Below are positions 5,701-62,176 of a DNA stretch of 64,000 nt, piece after piece; the first letter of the stretch is position 1; each line of letters opens with the position of its first letter. The notes under the pieces were generated by a model that saw only the letters and a program-made list of their open reading frames with translations, did no database searches and was not told the DNA's origin. Both the position numbers and the translations under genes were made by a program. The DNA comes from Dryococelus australis (lineage: Eukaryota > Arthropoda > Insecta > Phasmatodea > Phasmatidae), in contig CM057006.1 in assembly GCA_029891345.1 (NCBI GenBank), forward strand, positions 44,502,556 to 44,566,555, in the 5' to 3' direction.

Positions 5701-5921
5701 ACGGTGGGCTTTTTTTTCCCCCCCGACCCCCTTCTTTCCTTTTACGTGCCGCCTCCAAGGAGGTCAGAGGTCGCGGCAGAAGGAGGGCGTGGCTGTCCCC
5801 AATCCATCGTGGCAAATTTCTGGCGGGCGCATGAGAAACGCGAGATCACAGAAAAGTTAAGAACATGGAAGCGAAATGACAGCGGTGGTTCCTTCGATGT
5901 TGGCGTGTCGATTCTCTGATT

Positions 5922-6150
5922 GGGGCCGCGGTGATGAAGTGGTTAGACTACTCGCCTCCCGCATAGGTGAACCGGGTTCGATGCCCAGCGGTGGGCGTCG
6001 TGCCGGACGATGCCGTTGGTCGGCGGGTTTCCTCGGGGATCTCCCGTTTCCCCCACGATTTCATTCCGGCGCTGATCCACTCTCCACCTGAATCACCTTT
6101 ATCGGCTCTCAAGACCTCAATGTTAAGAGCGTCCAAATCACTTCACTCAC
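5922..6150 (+). mobile_element. tRNA-derived SINE, full length
   Basis: It has GGGGCCGCGG, an A-box-like AGTGGTTAGACTAC, a B box GGTTCGATGCCC near 5975, the body with CTCGGGGATCTCCCG, and the tail GGCTCTCAAGACCTC. It aligns end to end with the copies at 33794 and 60857. No clear A tail is seen. Confidence 0.9.
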
Positions 6151-12996: not shown

Positions 12997-13417
12997 TAGG
13001 CTATTCACGGTAAAATGAGCAATTATGGAAGCCCTGCTTAAGATCTACTTGTATGCACATTGTGTATTCTTTGACTCGTGTAAGATTAACATTGTTATGG
13101 GCCTCATAACTTTATTCATGAGTCGGTCAAGTAAAACTGTGAAATTATCATAAAATAAAATATTTAACAAATCTGCTCATTCCTACACTTCGATGAATTA
13201 AAAAAAACGATAAGCGAAAGAAATAATTTATGTTGTCAGAAATGGTTACCTAACAATTTGTACTCGACGTTAAGTTACGGAACTTCTTCCCATCCATCGT
13301 TACCAACTTTACTGGGTACATGTCACTCAGTGCGCCAGTTTAAAATATGTGCAGGTAGGGGTAGTGACATTTTATAAGGTTGATTTCAAAAGTGCTCACT
13401 TTATCGTGAACAGCCTT
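12997..13417 (+). mobile_element. Family A MITE, complete
   Basis: It is 421 bp, from TAGGCTATTCACGGTAAAAT to GTGAACAGCCTT, with inverted ends of about 25-30 bp. Flanking dinucleotides are TG on both sides; most other copies have TA. Internal order: CCCTGCTTAAGATCTAC, ATTTATTCATGNGTCGGTCAAG-like segment, TGGTTACCTAAC, CCATCCATCGTTACC. It is non-coding. Confidence 0.92.
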
Positions 13418-13469
13418 TGCCTTAATTTTGAAGTGTCAAACACTATTATGTTAATAAAATAAGTGTACC

Positions 13470-16770: not shown

Positions 16771-17018
16771 GAAGTGAAGTGAAGAGGTTTGTGGCGGCTC
16801 TTAACAGCGTGACCTTGAGAGCCGATGTGGGTGCTTGAGGTGAGAATGGAGCGGCGCCGGATTTAATAGGGCGGAGATCCCCGAGAAAACCCGCTGACCG
16901 ACGGCGTCGTCCGGGACGATCCTCACTTGCGAAAATCCGGAGTGGCCCGACCGGGGATTGAAACCGGTTCTCCTTGGTGAGAGGCGAGCAGTCTAACCGC
17001 CCAGCCACCGCAGTCCCA
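16771..17018 (-). mobile_element. tRNA-derived SINE, full length, reverse strand
   Basis: On the minus strand it has the tRNA-like head with B box GGTTTCAATCCCCGG, the body with CTCGGGGATCTCCGCC, and the tail GGCTCTCAAGGTCACG. It aligns with the copies at 23415 and 60857. A second, separate tRNA-like B box (GGGTTCAAATCCC) lies on the plus strand at about 17159-17171. Confidence 0.88.
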
Positions 17019-21358: not shown

Positions 21359-22541
21359 AAGCTCCGCGCGGGCGGCATCTGCGACTCCCGCATGTCTATT
21401 CGCGTGGCACCCCTTCTTCATTTTCTGCCCCCCCCCCCCCCCCCAACTCCAGAACCTCGCTAACCACTTTGATATCCGATGTAGCAGTTCCTGGGACTGA
21501 CGTCTGCTTGAAAGATGTCTTGAGGCGCAGTCATGCGTCTGGTTTGGCTACTGTTTCCTTACCTCGCCGTCTCTTCCGCCCCACCCCCTCACCTCCCAAC
21601 CAAACACCATTTCACCCCCTCGAATCGGAGACGCCACTTACCGACCTGGCGCACAAAAGACTAGATATTTTTAAACACGAAACTAATTCATCAACGTGAT
21701 CTTTACTCACGACGTTGGCTGCAATTCTGAACGTTATTCTGCAGATACCACGATGTGCCATCCCAGGCAATATTTCATCACAGCAATGTTTGAAACTGCT
21801 GCAGCCAGCTTTCTGTGCGGAACGTTTAATGATACAAGTGGACGCTATCTTAAATGTATGTAATTTTTGCCATTACTTATATTTGAGATCAATTTGTGAA
21901 AATGTGTCTTTGTCAGGGCATAGAACGTTATTTAATTATATTTGAGAGAGAATTATTGTTTGGTTTCTTGTGCTGCTATCGCTTCTGCGGTGATTATCAG
22001 AAGGTAATCAGTAATTTATTCCCATTTATTTCACGTTGCAAAAAAAAAAAAAGATACTCCATTGATATTGCAATTATTCAATCGCCGATGTGATATTCTA
22101 TGCCTTGTCAAAGAAAAAGTTTTAATAATGACTACCGAATACATCTTATGACCATAAAAAATGTGAAATTCCACAATGATTTCTATTCCCTCCCCCTTAA
22201 GTCTGTCTAGATTACCATTTATTCCTTTCAAAAACTGCACGTGGATTGTACTTGGTAGTCGTGAAGGCGAAGACGTAAGTAATAATTATAAAAATGTTCC
22301 TTTACAACTACACAAAATCACTACAAAGGAAGCGGGTCTTTCAGTGGTGTTGAAGAGGTCAAAATTATTCCCGTATTTTGAAGACATTTGATATTTTTTG
22401 TTACGCGTTAAACAGTGATCACATAAAAGTAAACAAACATAAAAGTAGTTTTTTAAAAATATGTAAAAAAAAAAAAAAAATTTAATTTTAACAAAGCACT
22501 CAGTGATGAAATTTTTCTCTCTCTACAAGTGCAAAGGTATA
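21359..22541. other. Unassigned stretch
   Basis: The first 300 bp are GC-richer, with a poly-C tract of about 15 at 21429-21443. The rest is AT-rich. Open frames of 65-76 residues have no recognisable domain. Confidence 0.4.
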
Positions 22542-22963
22542 TAGACTGTTCACGCTAAAATGAGCACTTTTGAAAGCCCTGCTCAAGATCTACTCGTATG
22601 CACGTTGTGTATTCTTCTGCCTTATATAAGATAAACATTGTCATGGACCTCATCACTTTATTCATACGTCGGTCAAGTGAAACTGTGAAATTATTAGAAA
22701 AGCAAATATTTGTACAAATCAGCTCATTTTTACACTTAGATGCATTAAAAAATAACAGAAAGCGAAATAAATTATCTAAATTATCAGAAATTATTACTAA
22801 CACTTTTTATTAGGCGTTAAGATACGGAACTAACTTCCCATCCATCGTTACCAACTTTACTGTGCGCATGTCCCTCAGTGCGCCCGTTAAACTTTATGCA
22901 GGTAGGGGCAGAACTTTTTTTTTGGTTGATTTCAAAAGTGCTAACTTTATCGTGAAGAGTCTT
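22542..22963 (+). mobile_element. Family A MITE, complete
   Basis: It is 422 bp, from TAGACTGTTCACGCTAAAAT to GTGAAGAGTCTT, flanked by TA on both sides (22540-22541 and 22964-22965). The terminal base changes are compensated at both ends (GACT/AGTC), so the inverted pairing is kept. All family landmarks are present; it is non-coding. Confidence 0.92.
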
Positions 22964-23414
22964 TAATTAAATTATAAAAACAGATTGCTTTTGATTAAAA
23001 CCACGAAATTGTTTCATATTCATTCGAGTTTGCATTGTATTCACTATCTCGAAATTTCGCTCATATTAGAATTAATTAATATTCCGTTGGCTAGCTAAGA
23101 TTTTCTGTTCAAGGACTTTTTTACATCATTATTTGACTGTGTTCCTCATTACTACTGACTATTTTAACCGTTATCTAATTCACGCCAAGCTCAGTACTTA
23201 AATATATTTTCAGAGCGGCTCAAGATAATAATACGAAAGCTGTTGTGATGCCTAAAACATTATTAACATTATTTTAAGTTGTAACTTCTGGTTTGATCCA
23301 AACCGTAGTATATGTAGGAGCGAGTATTCAAGTGACAATACCAATGTTGTACTTAACTGGGAAGTAAAAGCCGTGCGACCACTGACACGAGGTTACTAAG
23401 CCATCAACTCCTGA
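22964..23414. other. Unassigned AT-rich spacer
   Basis: No gene or shared repeat recognised. Confidence 0.4.
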
Positions 23415-23691
23415 ATGGGCCACTGTGACTGAGCGATTAGCACGCTCGCCTCCCACCAAGGCGAACCGGGCTCAATCCCCGGCCGGGTCACCGGATTTTC
23501 GCTCGTGGGAATCGTGACGGGACGACGCCGTTGATCGGCAGGTTTTCTCGGGGATCTCCCGTTTCCCTCGCCTCTTCATTCCGACGCCACTCCATATTCA
23601 CGTCAATCGCCCTCATCGGCTCTCAAGACCTCGTTGTTGAGGGCCGCCCAAATCTCTTCACCCAGTCGCTCATTAACTCCTAAAAAAAAAA
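23415..23691 (+). mobile_element. tRNA-derived SINE, full length, with A tail
   Basis: It has the head TGGGCCACTGTGACTGAGCG, an A-box-like GAGCGATTAGCACGC, the B box GGCTCAATCCCCGG, then the full body and tail GGCTCTCAAGACCTCG. A run of A follows at 23682-23691, the only clear A tail among the SINE copies here, so this may be one of the younger insertions. Confidence 0.9.
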
Positions 23692-28139: not shown

Positions 28140-28143
28140 GTTA

Positions 28144-28530
28144 TAGGCTGTTTACAGTTAAAACGAGCAATTTTGAAAGCCCTGCTTAAGATCTACTTCT
28201 ATACACGTTGCGTGTTCTTCCACCTAATGTAAAATTAACACTGTGAAATTATTATAAAAGTAAATATTGTAGAAATCTGCTCATTTTTACACTTCGATGC
28301 ATAAGAAAATACAGAAAGCGAGAGAAATGATTTAAGTTAATACAAATGGTTACCTAGCATGTTTTGTTCGACGTTAATATATGGAACTACTTTCCCCTCT
28401 ATCGTCAACAACTTTACTGGCCACACGTCACTCATTGCGCCCGTTAAAATATAAGCAGGTAGCAGGTAGGGGAAGTTACTTTTCTTTTAAGGTTGATTTC
28501 AAAAATGCTCCCTTTATCGTGAACAGCCTT
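28144..28530 (+). mobile_element. Family A MITE, internally shortened
   Basis: From TAGGCTGTTTACAGTTAAAA to GTGAACAGCCTT, flanked by TA on both sides. It is 387 bp; a block of about 30 bp around the family's CATGGGCCTCATCACTTT segment is missing. It starts 4 bp after the family J element. Confidence 0.9.
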
Positions 28531-28674
28531 TAGATAGACAATATTGTAGGCGGGATGCATAGATACGGAGAAGTAGGCGCTGGCGACTCATCCGGTATAT
28601 CATACATCGCGAGCGTTTTATAATTGTGTTAAAATGAAAGTACCTAGTGTCTGGTTAATTTGAACTTTTACTCA

Positions 28675-33793: not shown

Positions 33794-34052
33794 TGGGGCC
33801 GCGGTGGGACAGTGGTCAGACTACTCACCTCCCACCAAGGCGAGCTCCGATTTCGATTCCCGGCGGTGTCGCTCCCGGATTTTCGCACGTGGGAATCGTG
33901 CCGGACGATGCCGCTGGTCGGCGGGTTGTCTCGGGGATCTCCCGTTCCCCTTGCCCTTGCATTCCGCTGCAGCTCCATACTCACCTGACTTCACCCTCGT
34001 CGGCTCTCAAGACCTCGATGTTAAGAATCGCCCAAATATCTGCACTACCCTC
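33794..34052 (+). mobile_element. tRNA-derived SINE, full length
   Basis: It has the head GGGGCCGCGGTGGGACAGTG, A-box-like AGTGGTCAGACTAC, a damaged B box (TTTCGATTCCCGG), the conserved body GATGCCGCTGGTCGGCGGGT and the tail CGGCTCTCAAGACCTCGATG. It creates the downstream half of the two long open frames in this area. Confidence 0.9.
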
Positions 34053-35206: not shown

Positions 35207-35617
35207 AAGGTTGTGGAAAAGTGAGCACTTCTGAAATCAGCCTTGGAAAAAGTCACCGCCCCTACCTGCATATATTTTGACGGGTGCACTGAGTGACATG
35301 CGCCCAGTAACGTTGGTAAAGATGAACGGGAAGATGGTTCCATGTGTTAACGTCGAATAAATAATTGGTAGATGACCATTTGCGATAACTTAAATTATTC
35401 CTATTGCTTTATGTTTTTTTTTTTTAATGCGATGAAGTGTAAAAATTTGCAGATTTTTAAAATATATACTTTTCTAGTAATTTTACAGTTTCGCTTGAAC
35501 GACGCATGAAGAAAGCGATGAGGCCCATGACAATGTTATTTTTACATAAGGTGGAAGAATACACAACGTAGGTACAAGTAGGTCTTAAGCAGGGCTTTCA
35601 GAAGTGCTAATTTCACC

Positions 35618-35618
<1 letters not shown>
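35207..35618 (-). mobile_element. Family A MITE, reverse orientation
   Basis: It starts AAGGTTGTGGAAAAGTGAGC after TA and ends AGTGCTAATTTCACCG, where it runs into a TA microsatellite. Internal landmarks (GTTGGTAAAGATGAACGGGAAG, CAGGGCTTTCAGAAG) are in reverse order. About 412 bp remain; the last bases of the end were probably absorbed by the repeat. Confidence 0.9.

Positions 35619-35656
<38 letters not shown>
35617..35656. repeat. TA microsatellite
   Basis: About 18 TA units between a family A end and the hairpin. Confidence 0.95.
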
Positions 35657-37116: not shown

Positions 37117-37172
37117 AAGCTGTTTGCCGTTAATTCAGTTCTCTTTAAAGCCCTGCTTAGCATTTGCTTTTA
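37117..37172 (+). mobile_element. Family A MITE, left-end fragment
   Basis: AAGCTGTTTGCCGTTAATTC, then TTTAAAGCCCTGCTTAGCAT is the first 55 bp of a family A element. The full copy at 37175 follows directly, so one element probably inserted into or beside an older one. Confidence 0.75.
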
Positions 37173-37174
37173 TA

Positions 37175-37591
37175 TGCGGTTCACGGTAAAATGAGCACTT
37201 TCGAAAGCCCTGCTTACGATATACTTGTATGCACGTTGCATATTCTTCGGCCTTACGTAATATTAACATTGTGATGGGACTCATAACTTAATACATGCGT
37301 TGGTCGTGTAAAACTGAAATTATTAGGAAAGTAAATATTATACAAATCTGTTCATTTTTAAATTCCGATGCATTGTAATAGACAGAAAGCAAAATAAATA
37401 ATTCAAGTTATTACAAGAGGTTAATTAACACTTTTTATTCAACGTTAAGATATGGAACTATTTTCTATCCATAGTACCAACTTTACTGGGCAGATGTCTC
37501 TAAGTGCGCCCATTAAAATATACGAATTCAGGGGCAGTGACTTTTTTCTATGGTTCATTTCTAAAGTCCTTTCTTTATGGTGAACAGCCTT
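37175..37591 (+). mobile_element. Family A MITE, complete
   Basis: It is 417 bp, from TGCGGTTCACGGTAAAATGA to GTGAACAGCCTT, flanked by TA on both sides. All landmarks are in order. It is non-coding. Confidence 0.92.
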
Positions 37592-38571
37592 TATCCGCCT
37601 TTTGTATTCTTGCGTCCCATGTGAAATTAACGTTTATCCTACTTAATTTCGGAATAGGGAGAGATATTCGTCATGGGAATGTTCGGCGTAAGGAGAATTT
37701 CCGACACAATGTGCCCCGGTGTTCCAGAGAGGCCGCTTTCAATTTGGTGGTAAATTGAGAAATTCTGTTTATTTGGGTGTAAACGTTTGTGTTCGGTTCG
37801 GATTGTGATACGTACTTGCCCTGGCAAAATATTAAATAATACTTTGGTTTTGTAGCTATTACTATGCACGCCGTCCAAAGATACATTATTTACAAAGGTG
37901 AACAGTAAACAATTAAATCGTATTTGGCATTGAAATTTTGTAGACACTTATGTTATTAAAAATGTTACGAAACAAGCGTGAAACAAAGATACCTGTGTCT
38001 CATCAAAAGGAATTTTTCGATTCTGTCGTTACATTTAATTATAGTGACCGTGCAATCCAGTTGCTAAATTCAGATTTATGATGGAATATTAAACTCAATG
38101 TTGGCGTATTTCTTTACATTCTAATGCGAAGAACCGGGTTCATTCTTTGCACAGATTGTAACACAATACAAATCAGAAGCTTTTAGAAATCCATATCAAT
38201 TTCATGACGATTGCAATTACCACACTTGATTAAATACGATGCTAATCTCTGTTCTACAAGATGGATTAAATCACGTATACATACAACGCTAGTGACACCT
38301 GGCGGCGAAATTTATTATTTGCCCAACTATTACCATCGAACTTCCCAGCCTCAGTAAAAGTAAATCTTGATAAAATTGACGTTGCCAAAGACCCAGTCAC
38401 TTTATTCGTTAATCAATTAAGTGTGTGGCATTTTAGGAACGTGATTATTACTACCATTATGCTTATAAGAATGAATAAATTTAATAATTCTCGTGTCCAC
38501 AAATTCAAACATAACTTTAATAATATTACGTTAAAACACACAACTTTCGCTACGTCGTTGCCAACTTACTA
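37592..38571. other. AT-rich spacer with a decayed family A copy
   Basis: GACGTTGCCAAAGACCCAGT and CACTTTATTCGTTAATCAAT at about 38380-38420, followed by ATTAAGTGTGTGG, recall the middle of family A and probably mark a very old copy. No gene recognised. Confidence 0.35.
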
Positions 38572-38989
38572 TAGTCTATTCACGGCAAAATGAGCAATTT
38601 TGAAAGCCCTGCTTAAGATCTACCTGTATGCACGCTGTATATTCTTCCACCTTATGTAAAATTAAGGTTGCCTTGGGCCTCATCACGTTATTCATACGTA
38701 GGTCAAGTGAAACGGTGAGATTATTAGAAAATCAAACATGTTTAAATCTGCTAATATTTATACACCGAAGCGTTAAATCAAATCAGAAAGCGTAAGAAAT
38801 AATTGAAGTTATCGCGAATGGTTACCTAACACTTTTTATTCGACGTTAGCATATGGAACTAATTCCCATCCATCGTTACCAACTTTATCTGCCGCATATA
38901 GCTGGGTGCGCCCGTTAAAATATATGCAGTTTCAGTGACGTTTTTCTAAGGATGATTTCAAAAGTGCTCACTTTATCGTGAACAGCCTT
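38572..38989 (+). mobile_element. Family A MITE, complete
   Basis: It is 418 bp, from TAGTCTATTCACGGCAAAAT to GTGAACAGCCTT, with TA at 38570-38571 and 38990-38991. All landmarks are present. It is non-coding. Confidence 0.92.
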
Positions 38990-39589
38990 TAGCAGCTTTC
39001 AAATCTTTGTGTCCTTTGTAATAATGAAAATTATGGGAGGGAATTTTTTTAAATTGTTAGTTTCAAATGCTGGTAAGGCGGTCGTCCGCTGACGGTTGAA
39101 CTGCTCTGAAGCATGTTTCAAATACAGTTTTTTTTAAACTATACTATTAAACGTGTGCTCGATATGTTTACCTGAGAAAAAAGCATGCCCCAAATGAGGA
39201 CGGAATAGTGATTTTAATATATGCATATTAATTTTGAAGTCCTCCGACATAGTTTAAAGCTACTTGCTCATACTGCTATATCTTGAAACACACCAACAGG
39301 ATACGAACATTGCTTCAGACTTTCCACCAACGAAATTATAGGGTCGCCGCTTGAACTCCCCACGACGAGGACAACTGCACGCCAGTTCAAATTCTCGCAC
39401 GTTGCGGCGATGGCACACTTGATATGCGTGTCAGTGTGACCCTTATCGTTCTCTTGCTTGTGAGCCTCAGACGCGAAAACTAGCTTCTAAACAATGTCGG
39501 GAGACCTGCCACTATCGGCGAGTCACAACCCCTACTCCCAACCCTCGTAACTACCCCCCCCCCTCCAACCCTCCCCCCTACCCACCCAC
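38990..39589. other. Unassigned stretch, GC rising towards the end
   Basis: From about 39340 the sequence is GC-richer and single-copy, ending in C-rich runs near 39548-39590. No frame with a recognisable domain. Confidence 0.35.
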
Positions 39590-40830: not shown

Positions 40831-41500
40831 CGGCATACCCCAACTACTATTGTTCTATAGTTTTTTTTTTAATTATGATATACACAACTACTTGCAACGA
40901 GACCCATACAAAACTAGGTAGGTCCCATTTTATCATCACTCCCACCTCGTTATGATCAAAGTTGTCCCGGAAACCATTTCTAAATACGCTTATTAGGCAG
41001 TCGCCTCCTAAATAACACGCAAGCTTGTGGAAAACTTGCAGATTGACTCGTATTTGCCATCCCGAGAAAGCTTGTCATATTAAGTGGTTTTAAAGTTTAA
41101 TTGGAGCCAAATGTCTTATGAATGGCACCTACAGTGTTTTGCTAATGGCAAACTTGCAGATGACTTGAATTCAATTATGCTTGTAATTTCCGAATATAAT
41201 ATTGCTGCAATTTTTACTGATCAAGATAGCTTCAAGGTTGTCATTTGGATACTAGTTATCTTAATTCAAGCTTGCTAGCTTTCACAGCTCAGGCTCCCTG
41301 CAATTTTACAGGCTTGTCATGAAAAGTTTGATTCAAGCTTCAGTCAAACCATTTATGCTGTCGGAGCTTTCACCAATGGACTAAAAAGAGCGAGTTTATA
41401 CCTCTCCGGCACCAAATAAAATTCCTAGTGAAGAGAACACCGACAAGACATATTTGTTCTGATAAGTTTCATTTCTAATTCATCTTCACTTCTATAACCT
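40831..41500. other. Unassigned AT-rich spacer
   Basis: No gene or shared repeat recognised. Confidence 0.4.
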
Positions 41501-41776
41501 ACACTGAAAAAAAAATTATTGTAAACTTCCTAAACTGGAATGGAAGTTTTTAACCTCTACAGTGTACGGAAAAATTACTATACATCAGGCTGAAAATATG
41601 GGAATGTTTAGCATCAATACTATAAAAAGTTGGCAACTTCCTTACTCATTTGACTATTTCCTGAGAAACTGTAGGAAGGTTACTATAGATATATGGGAAA
41701 ATATTTTACTATTCACGCATTGTAACTGTACGTATACACATATATGGTAAATTGACAAATAATTCCTTGTAGTGTA
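41501..41776 (+). mobile_element. Family H MITE
   Basis: It starts ACACTGAAAAAAAAATTATT and ends AATTCCTTGTAGTGTA, inverted partners. The interior GGAAGTTTTTAACCT, GGAATGTTTAGCATC and CTTACTCATTTGACTATTT is shared with 59202, 61617 and 61898. It is about 276 bp and non-coding. The CACT start recalls CACTA-type elements, but the target duplication is not clear. Confidence 0.8.
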
Positions 41777-42195
41777 GCAATTTTTAAGACAGACTTTCAT
41801 CTACAAACATTCTAAAATTTGTTTAGCAGTTAATGTACACTCAAGTAGAACAGTGACGCTTTGGTCAGCTGATAAATTATAGCATGTAAATAAACAATAC
41901 TGCTGATACTTTACCCATCAGCTGTTGGTGGACAGATACAAAAGTCAAAATAAACATTGGCGCTACTTTCGTCTAACTGTCGAAATCTTGCCCCCTTGCA
42001 CTCTTAATCGGGATCGGTTATTTTTTTACTGATTGTCAGTTGAAACTGCTCCATCCAAAATCTGTAGCAAAAAATATCAATAATTCATCAGTTAAAAGAA
42101 ATCTACTAACTCAAGCATTAGAAAACTAGTTATTTATAGTTGGTTAATAAATAAGCACAGAGCATTCCTATGTGATGTAAGTAAGGTAAGTTTTT

Positions 42196-42290
42196 GGTTG
42201 TGGTTGGGCTCGAACCTCCACCCATAAAGCAAAGCATGCTGAAGCTTTCATGCTAAGCCATATCCACTGCCCTACTTTACCACTGCCAAA
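42196..42290 (-). other. tRNA-like segment, left arm
   Basis: On the minus strand it has an A-box-like TAGGGCAGTGGATATGGC and a B box GGTTCGAGCCC with flanks CAACCACA. Spacing between the boxes is near that of a tRNA. The acceptor ends do not form a clean stem, so I call it tRNA-derived, not a tRNA gene. Confidence 0.6.
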
Positions 42291-43055
42291 TGTGTGCTTG
42301 TATTATGGGTACTGAACCACAAAATGTAATGTCAGATATTGCTGTAAGTTTCGTGATGTGAAAGTATTTCTTGTTGTCGAAATATATAGATTTTCTGTGC
42401 AAGTACATGACTTTGTCAAGTTCGAAAGTCAATCTATCTTTAGGTTAGTTCAGATTCTGAGCTTCAAAAGATTAATATAGTGGTTTCAATGTACGAGGTT
42501 ATCTATGTCCACTAGTATCCGCCATTTTACAATGCAACGAGACACTACAGATTTAAACTGTTATCTTTAGTGACAGATAGATCAGTGATAATTTTACTGA
42601 CTCGGTAGTGCGGTTATTCAATAAGAAAGGTGGATTTACACCAACAAAAGTTTTGTGGTCTGCAAGTTAACAGATCAAATAATAAGGAAACGACAAATTT
42701 GATAAAATATTGCATTGTTTCTAATGTTCCACTGTCTAATTAGCATAGTTATTACTAGCCAATCTGTCTCTTCAAAATAGCAGTTTTATTCTGTAAAATT
42801 TCGTTGCATTGTAAAATGGCAGATACATTGAAAACACCGACAATACCAATAAAAACACTATATTTCTCTTTTAAAGCACAAAATCTGAACTAAACTTAAC
42901 TTAGAATGACTTTCGAGCCTTACAAAGACATATACCTACGTACGCATAATATGTGTATATTTCAACAATATGAAGTACTTTCACATTACGAAACTTACAG
43001 CCGTTCGCCATTGTAAGTTTATGTTATTACGCAAATGCGATACGGATTAATTCAG

Positions 43056-43150
43056 TGGCAAAGTAGCAGAGTTGGTAGAACTTCAACCAAACAAGAAAAA
43101 GAATGTGTTACGTTTTGTGGTGCCGGTTCGATACCAACCACTTCAAAAAT
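43056..43150 (+). other. tRNA-like segment, right arm
   Basis: AGTAGCAGAGTTGGTAGAAC resembles an A box and D loop, and GGTTCGATACC at 43125-43135 is a good B box. It is the inverted counterpart of 42196-42290. A complete acceptor stem is not evident. Confidence 0.6.
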
Positions 43151-43962
43151 TTCCTTGCGCATTTAATAATTTTGTTTTGCTACAAAATAATTCTACTTAA
43201 TTTATTTCAAACCGGAATGAACTGTTTTTAATCCTTGTTCTTTTTATTGATCGACTATAAGTGACTGATTTTCTACTATCTGTATTAGTGGATTTCATTT
43301 AACTGAAGAGATTAATAGTTTTCTTTTTGTACTTATTCTGAATGGAAGTAGTAAGGGCGGGCGGGATCTATTCCACATTGGATTAATTGGGATTATTCGA
43401 TGGATTATCGATGTGATCGATTTTTACGAATATATTTAAAACACGAGAGAATTTCATAGTGTTTAAATGATTTATGAGTCACCTAAGTGGAAATTTTATA
43501 CTTTTTTTGGGGGGGGATATTGTTTGTAGACGGTGGTGGGAGATAGGCGACTTTGAAAGATGTGATTTGCATGTTAAATGACCTGTTTTCCGAATGCAAT
43601 TAAACATCAGAGAAAAATCAGAGTGATCTAGTTATGAATAAATTGCACGCATCGAATAGCAAATTTCGAACGACTACATGAATAATAAGTGAAATTATGT
43701 AAATCTTAAATATAACATGAGTCTCCAGCTTAGAAATATAATTTACATGAGAGAGAATTTTAACTAATGTTGTCGACAAGTGCAAACTCACTAAACGAAA
43801 TTCAGCTTGCAAGTATGAAATTACACAAGGCAGAGTCTTTAAACGAGTTCTGTGTATGAATTAATAACACTACGGACAAGTATATTGAACAACTACTGTT
43901 TTTAAACAAAATCCAGCAAGTCAGTATGAATAAATAACACATACAAATTACACAATTCAGAC

Positions 43963-45158
43963 TAGATATTAAGATATAAAATTTGTTGGAATTATATACG
44001 GGGATTTGGATTTCGGATAGTATATATCTTCAGGGATATAAATTTTGATTGGCGGAATTTGTGAAATTATATTTAGTTGCAAATACGACAGGTTAATGGA
44101 TTCGGAAGTGTTCAAACTTCGCTGCACGAGAGGTGGGATTCAGGTAGGCATACAGACAGTCTTCAACTCAGGAAAAGACATGCACTCTGGTGAGGGGTAC
44201 TGGTGGGGTTGGGGTGGGTGCAGGGACCTCGGAAGCCATCTGCATCCCTGTATCCAGTATCCACAATCTTGCCTTAGTGTCGAAAAAAGACAATCGCCCG
44301 CTGATGGGTGAATGACATCCAGGGCCTTGCAGCCATGCATTTGGGGGGAAGGGTGCAGGGTGGCTGTCATTGTGGAGTCGGACCGGCCCTGTGGGGTGGA
44401 GGGTTGGGTGACTACAAGAAGGCAGCTCCCAATATGTACACAATTAGTCATTTGGCACCATCTTACATTAGTGCTGAAAGAATTGACAATCGCGAGCAGC
44501 CCAGCATAGCAGTCAAGCGTGGGGTGGAGGGTAAGGGGAGGGAGTTGTTGAAGGGAACTCTGGAATGAAGTGACCTCAGGTATCCAGCCTCCACCATCTT
44601 CAGTTGGTGATAGAAGCTTGGAGGAGACAGATGTGTACAGCTCTCTCTTCCGTCTTCATCGGACGGGTAGGCAGTTGGCGAACAACGAGGCTACAATCGG
44701 GGCTTACATCAACTACAGACTGGCGACCATCTCTAATGATAGCCACAATTAACATTTAAAATGTACCCATTTTAATATAAAAGTATTTTTATCGGGAAAT
44801 ATAAAAATTATTGTATGTTAAGTCAATATTGCGATACGTTTTTCAATTGTTGTGTTTGCTAGAAGAAAATCCCTAAAATACAGCTAGTGTTAACGAGTTT
44901 GCTCTATTTTTGGATATTTGTAGTTTGTTCGTCATTTTAAAAACTAATTTTCTCTTCGAGGAAGGTTGCGAATTTTTCTGTTAAATATATTAAGTGATGT
45001 GGGATTATGCTATATGCAAGTTTATTATTTTGAAACAAATCATTTGGGGTAAGGTTTTGTATCACTATATATTTTACTAATCAGAATAGAGGCACACTAT
45101 TGTGTCTGGTTTAAATCGTATTCAGAGTTTTTTTTTTGCCATCAGATGTCATTCTCCA
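43963..45158. other. Central spacer of the large inverted repeat
   Basis: About 44045-44760 is GC-richer than the arms. It has G-rich runs with quadruplex potential at 44194-44218 and degenerate internal repetition: CCAGTATCCACAATCTTGCC at 44250, GGCACCATCTTACATTAGTG at 44455 and CCAGCCTCCACCATCTTCAG at 44583. Open frames are short and no protein is recognised. Confidence 0.5.
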
Positions 45159-45645
45159 GGCTGAATTGTGTAATTTTTACGTGTTATTTATTCATACTGA
45201 CAAGCTGGATTTTGTTTAAAGACAGTAATTCGTCGTTATACTTGTCTCTTATATTATTAATTCATACATAGAACTCGTATAAATACTCTGCCTTGTATAA
45301 TATCATACTGGCTAGCTGAATTTCGTTTAGTGAGTTTGCACTTGTCGACACCATATGTTAAAATTCTCTCTCGTGTAAATTATATTTCTAAGTTCGAGAC
45401 TCACGTTATATTTAAGATTTATGTAATTTCACTTATTATTCACTTAGTCGTTTGAAATTTGCTATTCGATACGTACAATTTATTCTCACGTAGATCACTC
45501 TGAATTTCTCTGATGTTTTATTGCATTCAGAAAACAGATCATTTAGCATGTAAATTACATCTTTCAAAGTCGCCTATCTCCTATCACCTTCTACAAGCAA
45601 TACCCCCCCCCCCTTTCCCAAAAAAAGTATAAAATTTCCATTTAG

Positions 45646-45936
45646 GTGATACTTGTAAGTCATTTAAACACTATGAAATTCTCTCGTGTTTTAAGTATAC
45701 TCGAAAAAAATCGCCTATCTACCACCAACATCCCTCCAAACACCTCAAAATTAGAGAAATTAGAAGAAATGAGCCTTAGCCAACTCTTGCATTCAAATCT
45801 ACGCCTATATAAGACATTGCAACCCACCACTCTGGTCAGACACCTCCAGGGCACCACACCGTCAACATCGTACAGAGTTCCTGCTACCCCTCCCCCTATA
45901 AAGAAAGAAAGTCCCAAATCAAGAAAAAAAATCTAA
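45646..45936 (+). CDS. Hypothetical 96-codon frame in the right arm
   Basis: The frame starts within the inverted-repeat arm, but from about 45700 runs through sequence that the left arm lacks. It encodes a polar peptide with SKLEKLEEMSLSQLLHSNL and a P/K-rich end (TPPPIKKESPKSRKKI). Codon choice and lack of low complexity make it look more protein-like than other frames here. No family is recognised; it may be a captured exon or part of an element's own gene. Confidence 0.25.
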   Translation: MILVSHLNTMKFSRVLSILEKNRLSTTNIPPNTSKLEKLEEMSLSQLLHSNLRLYKTLQPTTLVRHLQGTTPSTSYRVPATPPPIKKESPKSRKKI

Positions 45937-46168
45937 TCCTATTAAAAGTTAACTCTTCTTGCCTAACCCCTTTTGATTAACCATTTCAATTAAATTTAAC
46001 CCTTTTTGATTAAAATTATCGGATTAAGGATTAATCTAATCAATGAAATCTATAATCCATCAATTATTCCCAATTAATCCCTGGTGAAATAGAACCCGCC
46101 TGCCGTAACTACTGATGGAGCAGTTTCAACTGACAATCAGTAATAATAACGGATTCCGATTTAGAGTG

Positions 46169-46494
46169 TACATAAGACATATATTAGCTGTATTATCGCA
46201 GTGAAGATTAAATAGAAAGATTATATAATTTATATATTCTGTATGGTACGAAAGCGCGTGTAAAATAAATTGTGTGAGTTATGAGAGAGATTGCTAACAG
46301 CAGTAATACGTTGAACTGGAGGAAACTGCACGTACTCTAGCCCATACTCGATAAGACACTTGCATGCTAAAAGTTCTCTTAACAAGAAGACACTAGAAAA
46401 ACACCCTTGACATAGGTTTCAAAATACAGCCAAAACTGCCCAAGAACAACGCTACACATCTGGTGGAGCAACATTTATTTATAACTATAAATAC
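46169..46494. other. Unassigned spacer
   Basis: AT-rich; no gene or shared repeat recognised. Confidence 0.4.
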
Positions 46495-56028: not shown

Positions 56029-56729
56029 TAAATTTCTCAATCTTCGCGAGGAACCTGTGAAACAAATACTGTTCTAACTAGCAAGTGATGTAGACTTCGA
56101 GATTATTATAAATCTTGAGCTATATGAAAAGATGAATAGTTTAGAAGTGTGTTTTCTAAAATAATTAGTTGTAAATATACACTGTAATATCTGCAGAGTT
56201 ACAAAACAATCTTCGGCAACAAGTTTCCAAAGAATTGGTTATAAAAAGTACAAAACTTTTTTTTACTATGTAGTTTGCGAAGAATTACTTGTACATACAT
56301 ACATACATACACATAAAAGAAAATTTTACTGGTCAAATTACATCACAAAAAATTCCAGGTTTTTGAGTAAAATCACTAACTCCCAGTTCCGACAAAGAAC
56401 AGAATTTATCCCATAATTTATAAGCTGCTTCTCGATTGAAGTCCGGTGAGATTACTTGCCGAGGTAGACTCATCTTCACCTTCGAAACTCGAAGCTTCGT
56501 ATTTAATTCCTAGTTCATCCCCCCCCCCCCCCCGTTAGCCAAGAGACATGCAACTAAGGTAATCACTCACTATGCACTACTTTCGTTACAGTTCCACGCA
56601 GCGTAGCACTTATTTGCTATTTGTGATGAGAATTTTGTAATATTTTAAATATGGAAATCCTTATTTATTCACCCTTTCTCCTTTTTCCGCTAGGCAAATT
56701 TCTGAGCTATCTTGATTCGAACTTGATTA
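56029..56729. other. Unassigned AT-rich spacer
   Basis: Contains a short CATACATA repeat at about 56293 and a C run of 15 at 56519-56533. No gene recognised. Confidence 0.4.
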
Positions 56730-57148
56730 AAGACTGTTCACGGTAAAGTGAGCACTTTTGAAATCAACCTTTGAGAAATTTGTGTATATTTTGTAACGGC
56801 ACACTGACTAGCATTCGTCCAGTAAAGTTGGCAACGACTGAGGGGAAAATAGTTCCACGTCTTAGCGTTGAATTAAAAGTACTAGGTAAACATTTGTGAA
56901 TACAAAAACTATTTATTTTACTTTTTGCTTTCTTTTTCTTTAATGCTTACGGATGTAAGAATTATCGAGTTTCTAAAATACTTACTTTGCTATGAATTTC
57001 GCAGTTTCACTTGACCGACGCTTGAATAAAGCGACCTGGCCCATGGCAATATTAATTGTATGTACATACGGTGGAAGAATACGCAATGAGTATACAAGTA
57101 GATCTTAAGCAGGACTTAAAAATTGTTCTGTTTACCGTGAACGGCATT
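56730..57148 (-). mobile_element. Family A MITE, complete, reverse orientation
   Basis: It is 419 bp from AAGACTGTTCACGGTAAAGT to TTTACCGTGAACGGCATT, flanked by TA (56728-56729 and 57149-57150). All landmarks are present in reverse. It is non-coding. Confidence 0.92.
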
Positions 57149-57188
57149 TAAACTTATGATTGACAGGATTTTTCCATTGCCAGTTTTT

Positions 57189-57376
57189 CATAGATCACGA
57201 TTTTTGTTCCGCGTTTGCGAACTCACGATGCACTTTGTACTAAATATTTTCATAGATCACGATTTTCGTTCCGCGTTTGCGAACTCACGATGCACTTTGT
57301 ACTAAATATTTTCTCATCGATCACGATTTTCGTTCCGCGTTTGCGAACTCACGATGCACTTTGTACTAAATATTTT
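57189..57376. repeat. 62-bp tandem repeat, three units
   Basis: Units at 57189-57250, 57251-57312 and 57313-57376 differ by only a few bases. Each contains TTCCGCGTTTGCGAACTCAC and GATGCACTTTGTACTAAA. The period is not a multiple of three, so the 101-codon frame across it changes reading frame at each unit and is not a protein. It starts 40 bp after a family A end. Confidence 0.96.
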
Positions 57377-59201
57377 CCGGTGCCCACTCAAATAGTTACT
57401 TTCTTTTTACATGTATTTTTTTTTTTTTACTGTCGGTTTACTATCCTTGTCACAAGAAAGTTCAGCAATGCAGCCCTTTTGAAATCTCATTTGTCCGCTG
57501 TTCTTTATTGGTCTTTTTAAACGGACAAGTAATAATCTGAAAATGTTCACTGCGAAATTACCAAGTCGTCGATTTTTTTATAAGCTAGTGGAGGCGTCGA
57601 CATTAACATCTGTATTGCAAATAGTGTGGCTCCCCATAAGGCCCCTATACGTACTAGAATAATTTTATTTGCTGAAAGACAGCCCATACTAAGACATATT
57701 TCATGTGTACCGAGAACAGAGTGCATCGTAAGTTGCTGACACTAACTTTGTTGGTAGGTAACTTTCTACATGAATGACTTGTTACTCTAAAATCGAGGGT
57801 TTTTGAGAAAATCACTAAAGTAGTGGAGAGTTATGAGAGAATTACTAATTCTTTCTAACATTATTATAGTTTAAAAAAAAAAAAAGCAATACTAAGCCAA
57901 ACTGTATTCGTTAAATAGTTTTCATTTTGGGGCTTAAATTATCTCTTATCTAGTAACAAGGAAAAAGGATCCACGTACATGTTAACATAAACTAGAAATA
58001 TGAAGTCAGCAAACCGGGACTGCATTCATCGATATAGAACATATACTATTGCAGTTTTCATAATTCACAATTTTCCAGTGAATTGAAGGCGAATCGATGT
58101 ATTTATACTGATCCCCGTGGAAATATTACAATTCATAAGGTCGTCACTAGAGACCAATGTTTTGAATAAATACTAATACATAATTTGTATAAACTGGTTT
58201 CTTTTTGGTTTCTTTCCAGAATATTAAAACGACCGATGTAACAAATGATTTTCCTCGTTTTTTTTTTTTTTTTAAGTAGGGTGAACTGATAACTCATTAT
58301 TTATGTAACGTAAATTATGCGTATTGGTACATATGCTACCGCATATGGAAAGGTGTATGTCTGCGTGTTAGTCACTGTACTTAACAAAAATTTAATACCA
58401 AGATGAATTACATCTTATCATTAGCTAACAAGAAAATCATATCTTTATAACGTTTTCACTTCTTTTAGTGTCATCTCTACAAATGTGTTAACTGTGTATG
58501 CTTAATTTATATAAGTAATTCTCATCAAACGTTGTGCAAGTAGTTAAAATAATTGCGATATAAAATCTTCGTCCATATTAAACACGGAGGTCATCCGATC
58601 TGGTAACTGCTTAGAAACTGCTCCGGGAATCTAAGGCGGTACAAAAGCGGTTACATTAAGTGTATTACTCAATCAATTTTAAATTTAAACTCAACTGCTG
58701 CAGCCTAGCAAGATGGTGTCATCAGTTTACATGTGGACATAAATGCCAACAAGGTGGAATATATAAATTGCTTTACTACTACAAATCAACGTTTCAGCGT
58801 TATTATTGAGATATTGTGCAGTGATTTTTTTATTTCCACTTTTATCTTTATGTTTTGTATACAGCCAAATTTATGTGCCTAAATGTGGACGTAAACTGAA
58901 AAAGCGCATCAGTTACTTTATAAAAATGTGTTACAGAAATTTAGCTAACATCTACGAAGAACGTATCAATTTTTCGTAAGTGTACATAAACCTGCAACGG
59001 TACGCAATGCTAAGTGAAGAGGAGCGAGTTATTTTGAGAGACTGTACACAACCCAATGATGAACTAACCCTTGTTATTGGGAGAGGGCGCTGATGTAGAG
59101 GCTGAAGACTAATCCCCAAGGGCGTTGAGTCTCGTTAAGGGATTACATAACCCCCCTAACCTTGTGTACAGCCTCGGCAAAGAATTAATTCGACGTCTGT
59201 C
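57377..59201. other. AT-rich DNA without recognisable features
   Basis: About 1.8 kb. A run of about 13 T lies near 58259-58273. No gene, repeat or regulatory signal is supported. Confidence 0.4.
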
Positions 59202-59474
59202 TACAATGTAAAAAAGGTTCTGGTAAAATTCCTAGATTGTAATTGAATTTTTTAACCTATACATCGTATGGAAATATTTTCGCATGTCAGACTGCATATG
59301 TAGGAGTGTTTAGCGTGGTTACTATACAAGGTTGGGGACTTCCCTACGCATTTGACTGTTTCGTGAGCGAATGTAGGAACGGTAACATGGATGTATGGGA
59401 AATTAGTTAACCATTCGCACCTTCACACTATTCGTATACATCGGTACGGTAATTTTACGAATAATTTCTTACAG
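59202..59474 (+). mobile_element. Family H MITE
   Basis: It starts ACAATGTAAAAAAGGTTC and ends CGAATAATTTCTTACAGC. The interior GGAGTGTTTAGCGTGGTTAC and CTACGCATTTGACTGTTTCG is shared with 41501 and 61898. It is non-coding. Confidence 0.78.
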
Positions 59475-60276: not shown

Positions 60277-60856
60277 TTCATATGGAAACTGAAGGATCCA
60301 GTCCTGGCCGAAGTTTTCATAGCGTGGTTTGGATAGACGTTCCAGGCGTAGTTGCAGATTTTTAATACCAATCTCGCCAACTGTCTATCTTTCAGTTCAA
60401 ACTATTAGCCTTTATGCCTGAAAGTTATTATTACTTTTATCATTATAAAACGTTTCCAAGCTAATAGCCATTTTATCATCACCAATAAATACAAGTAAAA
60501 CAACACAGTAGGGTTGGTACTCGGGAATTGTGAAAGAGCGCTATCATAGTCGTAACTGAAGTTTTATTTAGGCAATAATTTTTGTCAGCATTATCATATT
60601 GATACAGTGAAATAGAAAGAAGACGGAAATATTTTATTGTAATTATTTTAAACTAAAGTGCGAGCACCTGACCTTGTACAATTTTGGCAAGAGCAGCAAA
60701 AATGATACACCCTTCCTTCAGACGAAACTAGAAGTACTTATACGCGGCAGATCTTGAAAAGTTAAGTGCGTTTACAGCGTTGTTATTTCTCAATAACGTT
60801 CTAAACGAAGCATTAGTATACACTTGGCTCAATGCTTAGTCATTAACCTCCCGATT
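60277..60856. other. Unassigned AT-rich spacer
   Basis: No gene or shared repeat recognised. Confidence 0.4.
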
Positions 60857-61105
60857 GGGGCCGCGGTGGTGTAATGGGCAGACTATTCGCCTCCCACCAA
60901 AGCGAACCGGGTTTCGATTCTCGGCTGTCGCTCCCGGATTTTCGCGCTTAGGAATCGTGCCGGACGTTGCCCCTGGCCGGTGGGTTTTCACGGGGATATC
61001 CCGTTTCCCCCATCCTTACATCCCGGTGCTGCTTCATAGTCACCTAGATTCACCTTAATCGGCTCTCAAGACCTCGATGTTAAGAGCCGCCCAAATCTCT
61101 CACCT
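60857..61105 (+). mobile_element. tRNA-derived SINE, full length
   Basis: It has GGGGCCGCGGTGGTGTAATG, B box GGGTTTCGATTCTCGG near 60908, the body GGATATCCCGTTTCCCCCAT and the tail GGCTCTCAAGACCTCGATGT. A second, partial SINE follows directly. Confidence 0.92.
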
Positions 61106-61616: not shown

Positions 61617-61895
61617 CACTGTAATAAATTGTTTGGAAATTTACCCTACTAGTGTATGTATTTGCTTAGTGGGAAAGCAGGAATGGCATTGTTTCCCCTA
61701 TACATTCATTGTAGTGTTCCTACATTTGCTCAGCAAACAGTCAAATGCGTAAGGAGATTCCCAACTTTGTATAGTAGCGCTACTAAACATTCCTATATCT
61801 GCAGCTTGATGTGTGGTGTTATTACCGTACAGTGTATAGGTTTAAAACTTCCAATACAGCTTAGGAAGTTTACCAGAAATTTTTTTTACAGTGTA
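61617..61895 (-). mobile_element. Family H MITE, left half of a palindrome
   Basis: It starts CACTGTAATAAATTGTTTGG and ends TTTTTTTTACAGTGT. The reverse complement aligns with 61898-62176 throughout (for example CAAACAGTCAAATGCGTAAG). It is non-coding. Confidence 0.88.
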
Positions 61896-61897
61896 TG

Positions 61898-62176
61898 CAC
61901 ACTGTAAAAATTATCTGGTGGACTTTCTAAACTGTTATGGAAGTTTTTAACCTATACACAGCATGGCAATAATACCACACATCAAGTTCCAGATATAGGA
62001 ATGTTTAGAATCGCTACTATACGAAGTTGGGAATCTCCTTACGCATTTGACTGTTTGCTGAGCAAATGTAGGAACGCTACAATGAATGTAAAGGGGGAAA
62101 ATTTTACCAGGCCCGCTTTCTCACTAAGTGTATATACTGGTATGGTAAGTTTTCGAATAATTTCTTAGTGTGTATA
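61898..62176 (+). mobile_element. Family H MITE, right half of a palindrome
   Basis: It starts CACACTGTAAAAATTATCTG and ends CGAATAATTTCTTAGTGTGT. Its head lies within a few bases of the head of the reverse copy on its left. Aligns with 41501 and 59202. Confidence 0.88.

Follow-up and report, generated by a model that had tools for sequence, protein, structure and literature searches.

How a palindromic insertion could come to carry a tRNA-like segment in each of its two arms is the question raised by a locus in the genome of Dryococelus australis. A preliminary description placed this insertion at 42056-43341 of the 64,000-nt stretch of DNA analyzed here (the window) and offered two origins for it, namely a head-to-head fusion of two tRNA-derived retroposons (SINEs) or a foldback element that captured a tRNA-derived sequence before its arms were duplicated. 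The genome searched for relatives comprises 3,415,067,245 bases and is described as an assembly of 3.42 Gb with 17 large scaffolds and a scaffold N50 of 262,277,254 bases, in which repeats account for 63.29% of the sequence with an unclassified portion of 1.56 Gb (PMC10268593).

The two halves of the insertion are reverse complements of each other, as initially proposed. Positions 42045-42610 align with 42730-43352 at 74% identity (407 of 552 aligned bases), and the alignment score of 355 compares with a maximum of 51 in 100 shuffles. The proposed borders proved too short, with the element instead spanning 41999-46168 and its right end displaced by a nested insertion at 43347-46113. The main body (41999-43346, plus strand) corresponds to positions 1-1390 of a 1440-bp family consensus, with 1264 of 1345 aligned bases identical (94.0%) and about 43 bp of the consensus left arm missing, and the displaced right end (46114-46168, plus strand) corresponds to consensus 1385-1440 in an alignment that reaches exactly the last consensus base. 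The arm alignment sets the left arm at 41999-42610 (plus strand) and leaves a central loop at 42611-42729 in the interval between the aligned arms; taken together with the consensus alignment, it sets the right arm at 42730-43346 (minus strand), continuing at 46120-46168. The dinucleotides read on either side of the element are TG (41997-41998) and TA (46169-46170), which are not identical and fall one base short of an exact duplication. The segment 46038-46168 was also considered as an empty-site paralogue and was ruled out, because the consensus shows 46114-46168 to be the element's own right end.

The nested insertion is itself an inverted-repeat element of 2767 bp with AGTAGT...ACTACT ends, and it belongs to a separate family. 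Its arms share 520 identical bases with 79 mismatched bases, and a search for its relatives elsewhere in the genome gave 5092 first-look candidates, of which the best 40 were scored. The terminal repeat of the palindromic element is absent from these relatives, as among the matches listed outside the window none starts before query base 55. Consensus positions 1385-1390 are present on both sides of the nested insertion, as AATGGA at 43341-43346 and as GATGGA, with one mismatch, at 46114-46119, and these six overlapping bases look like a target duplication generated when it inserted. A second copy (L030) showed no clear 6-bp duplication. AGT...ACT ends combined with a 6-bp duplication are features reminiscent of the ends of Polinton/Maverick elements. 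Regardless of its classification, the locus presents one inverted-repeat element nested inside another.

Several other repeats share the window. Another palindrome with CACT-type ends, about 556 bp long and unrelated to the element, lies at 61617-62172, with related half copies near 41500-41775 and at 59203-59474; elsewhere in the genome, a relative of this other palindrome has a copy of the 1440-bp element (L008) at its end. Six copies were aligned of a roughly 250-bp dispersed repeat that has a tRNA-type head and contains a B-box sequence (1415-1667, 5918-6142, 16779-17008, 23445-23661, 33794-34041, and 60856-61100); from its sequence, it is likely a SINE family that could serve as a natural control for polymerase III tests. 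An uncharacterized repeat of about 425 bp is present in many window copies (12997-13418, 22540-22965, 28142-28532, 35218-35619, 37171-37593, 38570-38991, and 56728-57141), and a short tandem array at 57185-57377 holds 3.1 copies of a 62-64-bp unit that are 95-96% identical. Three frames of the window unrelated to the element had no match in Pfam.

The preliminary description proposed a genome search with 42056-43341 and named a single copy lacking a flanking duplication as an outcome that would speak against mobility. The search revealed a mobile family instead, with many relatives that share both arms, the fold, and 2-bp flanking duplications. It gave 2262 first-look candidates, and the best 40, the window copy included, were all relatives upon scoring; the other 39 are 84-89% identical to the query, and 37 of the 40 span nearly all of it. 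In the aligned copies, similarity continues past the borders first drawn up to a sharp end, CACTCTAAATCGG, beyond which the flanks are unrelated. A consensus was built from the 18 of 20 loci in which both ends were found, with the window copy (L001) and L020 omitted because one end was not found. It is 1440 bp long with the ends CACTCTAAATCGG...CCGATTTAGAGTG, and the 18 loci are 94.2-95.3% identical to it. A query with the left end gave 1703 first-look candidates, and in a sample of 10 of the 40 matches listed, seven reach the last or last-but-one base of the element, one lacks the last 19, one ends at 1383, and one lacks 467-765.

The divergence of the copies carries information on how they arose. 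Across 30 copies, the mean distance to the consensus is 5.6% and that of the copies from one another is 10.4%, with individual copies about 5-8% from the consensus, so that the relationship is nearly starlike. A few variants are linked among these copies. Those few aside, the divergence appears close to the expectation for one burst followed by separate decay. The longest stop-to-stop frame in the consensus is 85 codons. Copies of roughly uniform length in high number are what is expected of a miniature inverted-repeat transposable element (MITE), and 1440 bp exceeds the usual size of this group, which is given as generally below 600 bp with exceptions allowed (PMC4877112). The family is apparently undescribed and may well be among the unclassified entries of the published Dryococelus australis repeat library; its kind, a large palindromic non-autonomous DNA transposon, is already known.

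The ends of the element bear on its mode of movement. The terminal 60 bp of the consensus are perfectly inverted (60/60). We examined 37 loci (L002-L020 and L063-L080) and located both ends in 30, and identical dinucleotides flank the element in 27 of these 30 copies. Mispaired flanks agree at 2 bp in 33% of cases. No copy matches when the comparison is extended to 3 bp (0/30) or across 3-9 bp (0/30). To judge from these flanks, the 2-bp duplication is the signature of insertion by cut and paste, with the cuts staggered by 2 bp. Inverted ends with an exact 2-bp duplication therefore indicate a non-autonomous cut-and-paste DNA element, in the form of a large palindromic MITE, and not a SINE dimer.

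Assignment to a superfamily is more tentative. The 27 matching duplications are TA in 15 copies, CA in five, AA in four, and TG in three, and a Tc1/mariner origin with its strict TA duplication was dropped on account of the 12 pairs that are CA, AA, or TG. The Foldback/Galileo/MULE class, for which duplications of about 7-10 bp are typical, was set aside in light of the 0/30 result at 3-9 bp. Elements of the CMC group (CACTA, Mirage, and Chapaev) have CACT-type ends and a 2-3-bp duplication that is not fixed to TA. The family displays both features, and its CACT...AGTG ends together with the 2-bp duplication point to this group, as a provisional placement by comparison. A search for the CMC-type transposase PF02992 gave 11 candidates, none at E<=0.001, and the control was likewise without matches. 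To find an autonomous partner, 30 loci were fetched of the 150 PF13358 matches listed (from 14198 candidates); none matched the consensus, and these 30 loci showed only unpaired loose matches to the element's end. A 63-base query from the terminus gave no hits in a search whose filter passes over common words.

The feature that drew attention to the locus is the pair of A-box/B-box segments. The B boxes lie where the preliminary description had placed them, with GGTTCGAGCCC on the minus strand at 42206-42216 and GGTTCGATACC on the plus strand at 43125-43135. The left motif segment (42194-42288, minus strand) has its A box, TAGGGCAGTGGA, at 42263-42274 and was detected by ARAGORN only at a relaxed threshold; the right segment (43064-43135, plus strand) has its A box, TAGCAGAGTTGG, at 43064-43075. 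The consensus retains an A-box plus B-box match in each arm. Dinucleotide shuffling never equalled it (0 of 400 for either arm), and shuffling the columns of the paired arms never equalled the two-arm match (0 of 300); the motif used was chosen after the sequence had been seen, and when the left arm is read in register with the right, its A box departs from the motif at one base. Among the 30 copies, 12 have a GGTTCGANNCC match in both arms. The A-to-B spacing is 58-66 bases. The spacing in most tRNA genes is shorter. In the consensus, the two segments sit in mid-arm; the distance to the outer ends is about 230-240 bp, and that to the center exceeds 300 bp.

Whether the motifs have been maintained can be approached by comparing arms and copies. 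Informative box positions agree between the arms at 15 of 17 columns versus 60 of 92 other columns (p 0.049, or 0.025 with another gap cost), and 24 of 30 copies have every base of the left B box in place, which ranks this box in the top 1.6% of 11-mers. Taken together, these two observations give hints of constraint on the motif. For the right B box the match is exact in 14 copies, and neither this box nor either A box is better conserved among the 30 copies than other stretches. The copies, as sequences, thus display no consistent constraint on the motifs. Additionally, four of eight copies sampled with the right segment (L074, L075, L076, and L079) share a deletion of approximately consensus 149-441 that removes the left motif. 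These four are 1093-1101 bp long and lie on four contigs, with matching flanking dinucleotides in three of the four, and they form a derived subfamily of about 1.1 kb with two deletions relative to the consensus. Because copies with the left motif deleted sit at separate sites, movement does not need both motifs.

The term tRNA-like holds for the A/B motifs in both arms and does not extend to tRNA identity. ARAGORN with default settings found no tRNA in the window, and under the relaxed setting its 34 hits were scattered and included the left segment. At a cutoff of E<=10, the Rfam tRNA model matched neither the window element nor 15 further loci nor another 8, and at minimum energy each segment is predicted to fold into a long hairpin and not a cloverleaf. 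A tRNA gene or pseudogene was ruled out by the default ARAGORN and Rfam negatives and by the scatter of the relaxed hits. Rfam matches below threshold belong to other families; for example, Arthropod_7SK in L080 (14.5 bits and E 1.8 against a gathering score of 44) was taken as chance. The right segment alone gave 1465 first-look candidates, and eight of the 40 listed were fetched, all of which (8/8) lie within relatives of the element. A separate dispersed repeat as the source of the segment was rejected on the basis of this sample, which leaves room for rarer or more distant free copies. We regard the motifs as statistically real by the shuffle comparisons and as the family's one unusual feature, a feature that is not required in duplicate and whose promoter activity is putative.

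The orientation of the segments bears on what they could produce. With the left motif on the minus strand and its right counterpart on the plus strand, both face away from the center. Long complementary RNAs had been anticipated from transcription of both arms, and this expectation finds no support in the orientation of the motifs, which face outward in the same sense with T-runs soon after the B boxes. Since outward segments on opposite strands of an inverted repeat are copies of the same sense, any transcripts would be same-sense relatives of each other and not complements. Counted from the start of the B box, T-runs of at least four T are reached at 28 and 45 bases in the consensus and at 91 (left) and 45 bases in the window copy, from which it follows that putative polymerase III RNAs would be short. 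According to this model, a long hairpin RNA would arise only by read-through of the whole element.

Three other readings of the locus deserve consideration. The closest one accepts the same DNA transposon and adds working polymerase III promoters or TFIIIC sites in both arms, which would yield outward RNAs of about 110-130 nt or open chromatin. The shuffle results in both arms, the slightly better agreement of box columns than of the rest, the unusually well kept left B box, and the consensus T-runs at 28 and 45 bases from the start of the B box all argue for working promoters. Against these stand the missing Rfam tRNA match, the predicted hairpins in place of cloverleaves, an A-to-B spacing longer than in most tRNA genes, a right B box that fewer than half of the copies (14 of 30) match exactly, with unremarkable A boxes on both sides, and the spread of copies that have lost the left motif; T-runs, moreover, are common in AT-rich DNA. 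On balance, we consider functional promoters unlikely. A more ambitious proposal, in which a working promoter or TFIIIC site in each foldback arm keeps the ends open to transposase and some two thousand paired, outward-facing TFIIIC sites are scattered through an insect genome as mobile boundaries, would be a long shot in our estimation.

Fusion of two tRNA-derived SINEs head to head, the first origin in the preliminary description, would account for one B box per arm, and the presence in the window of a repeat with a tRNA-type head also speaks for it. What the element shows in place of the simple-repeat tail of a SINE and a duplication of variable length are inverted CACTC...GAGTG ends and a duplication of exactly 2 bp, and it has the A/B motif only, with no tRNA-related head by Rfam. 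The motifs lie in mid-arm and not at the junction, and the sampled right-segment occurrences all fall in relatives of the element (8/8). These observations make a SINE fusion highly improbable. We give equally little credence to a host hairpin-RNA locus that produces endo-siRNA and is not a transposon. The segment 42056-43346 (1291 bases) is predicted to fold into a single long hairpin at -437 kcal/mol, a figure obtained without a shuffle control, as such a locus should; a host locus would not be expected at high copy number with sharp ends and target duplications, and the arms are only 74% identical in the window copy.

The reading that best accommodates these observations, to which we assign a probability of roughly 85%, is that the window element is one insertion of a 1.44-kb DNA transposon, non-autonomous and of the cut-and-paste type, that is almost fully palindromic, MITE-like or foldback-like, with an A/B-box segment that is most likely a degenerate passenger. 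A transposase encoded elsewhere would bind the ends and excise the element, which would then be pasted at a 2-bp staggered cut favoring TA. The founder palindrome may have formed by inverted duplication of one arm, and an A/B-box segment already in that arm would have become two. As the two motif segments are homologous, one sequence was present before the arms duplicated, and the passenger most likely predates the duplication. The second origin in the preliminary description is thereby retained in part: a mobile foldback-like family and homologous segments that predate the duplication stand, and the absence of an Rfam match and the predicted hairpin folds speak against a tRNA origin of the captured sequence. 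The arms of the consensus are identical at 534 of 666 positions and at 34 of 55 in the stretch holding the A boxes. Drift would have lowered the identity of the arms to 80% and left the ends identical, with multiplication only afterwards; that the arms diverged before the burst follows from the copies being within about 5-8% of the consensus. The ends were presumably kept identical since both must bind transposase, and we infer that identity kept at the ends only fits a requirement for two matching transposase sites. The linked variants and the deletion subfamily among the copies count against this explanation, as such features are held to be more typical of class I elements in the account of PMC7805219. 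Further points against it are the two hints of constraint on the motif, the unequal TG and TA flanks of the window copy, and the outcome of the limited transposase searches, which yielded no autonomous partner.

Even if the boxes are inactive, the family clearly exemplifies a large, palindromic, MITE-like element with diverged arms and identical 60-bp ends. If they work, the rule that polymerase III features denote a SINE and inverted ends denote a MITE fails for an abundant family, and one genome offers many natural paired TFIIIC sites. Among the open-licence papers listed, we found no description of a MITE whose two arms both carry polymerase III motifs. In terms of known systems, CMC elements resemble this family in their CACT...AGTG ends and in a 2-bp duplication that is not confined to TA, with the difference that the PF02992 search here, whose control was likewise without matches, found no CMC transposase. 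Galileo, of the P superfamily, and the Tm1 foldback elements have the same long imperfect inverted arms and small loop, in a comparison made by descriptions only; their duplications are longer, whereas at least 3 bp never matched here (0/30). The Bari-related MITEs (PMC4877112) and the Incomer MITEs of bats (PMC6875036), both Tc1/mariner, are like this family non-coding, with terminal inverted repeats and high copy number, and moved in trans. They are described as using TA, in contrast to the 15 of 27 TA and 12 of 27 CA, AA, or TG duplications here, and they are shorter than the 1440-bp element, with no polymerase III motif noted in the parts of these two accounts that describe them. DINE-1 is likewise an abundant non-autonomous insect element that was once debated as a SINE or a MITE, and polymerase III features versus inverted ends were applied to class it; the corresponding part of its description reports it without polymerase III and tRNA features, whereas A/B motifs are present in the palindromic family (PMC2374699). 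The inverted-repeat boundary elements of fission yeast combine inverted repeats with B boxes, as seen here (PMC4502379). Those elements are described as fixed, flanking a silent locus, with five B boxes and a tested boundary function, whereas the family in Dryococelus australis is mobile and its consensus carries one predicted B box per arm, as a sequence motif only.
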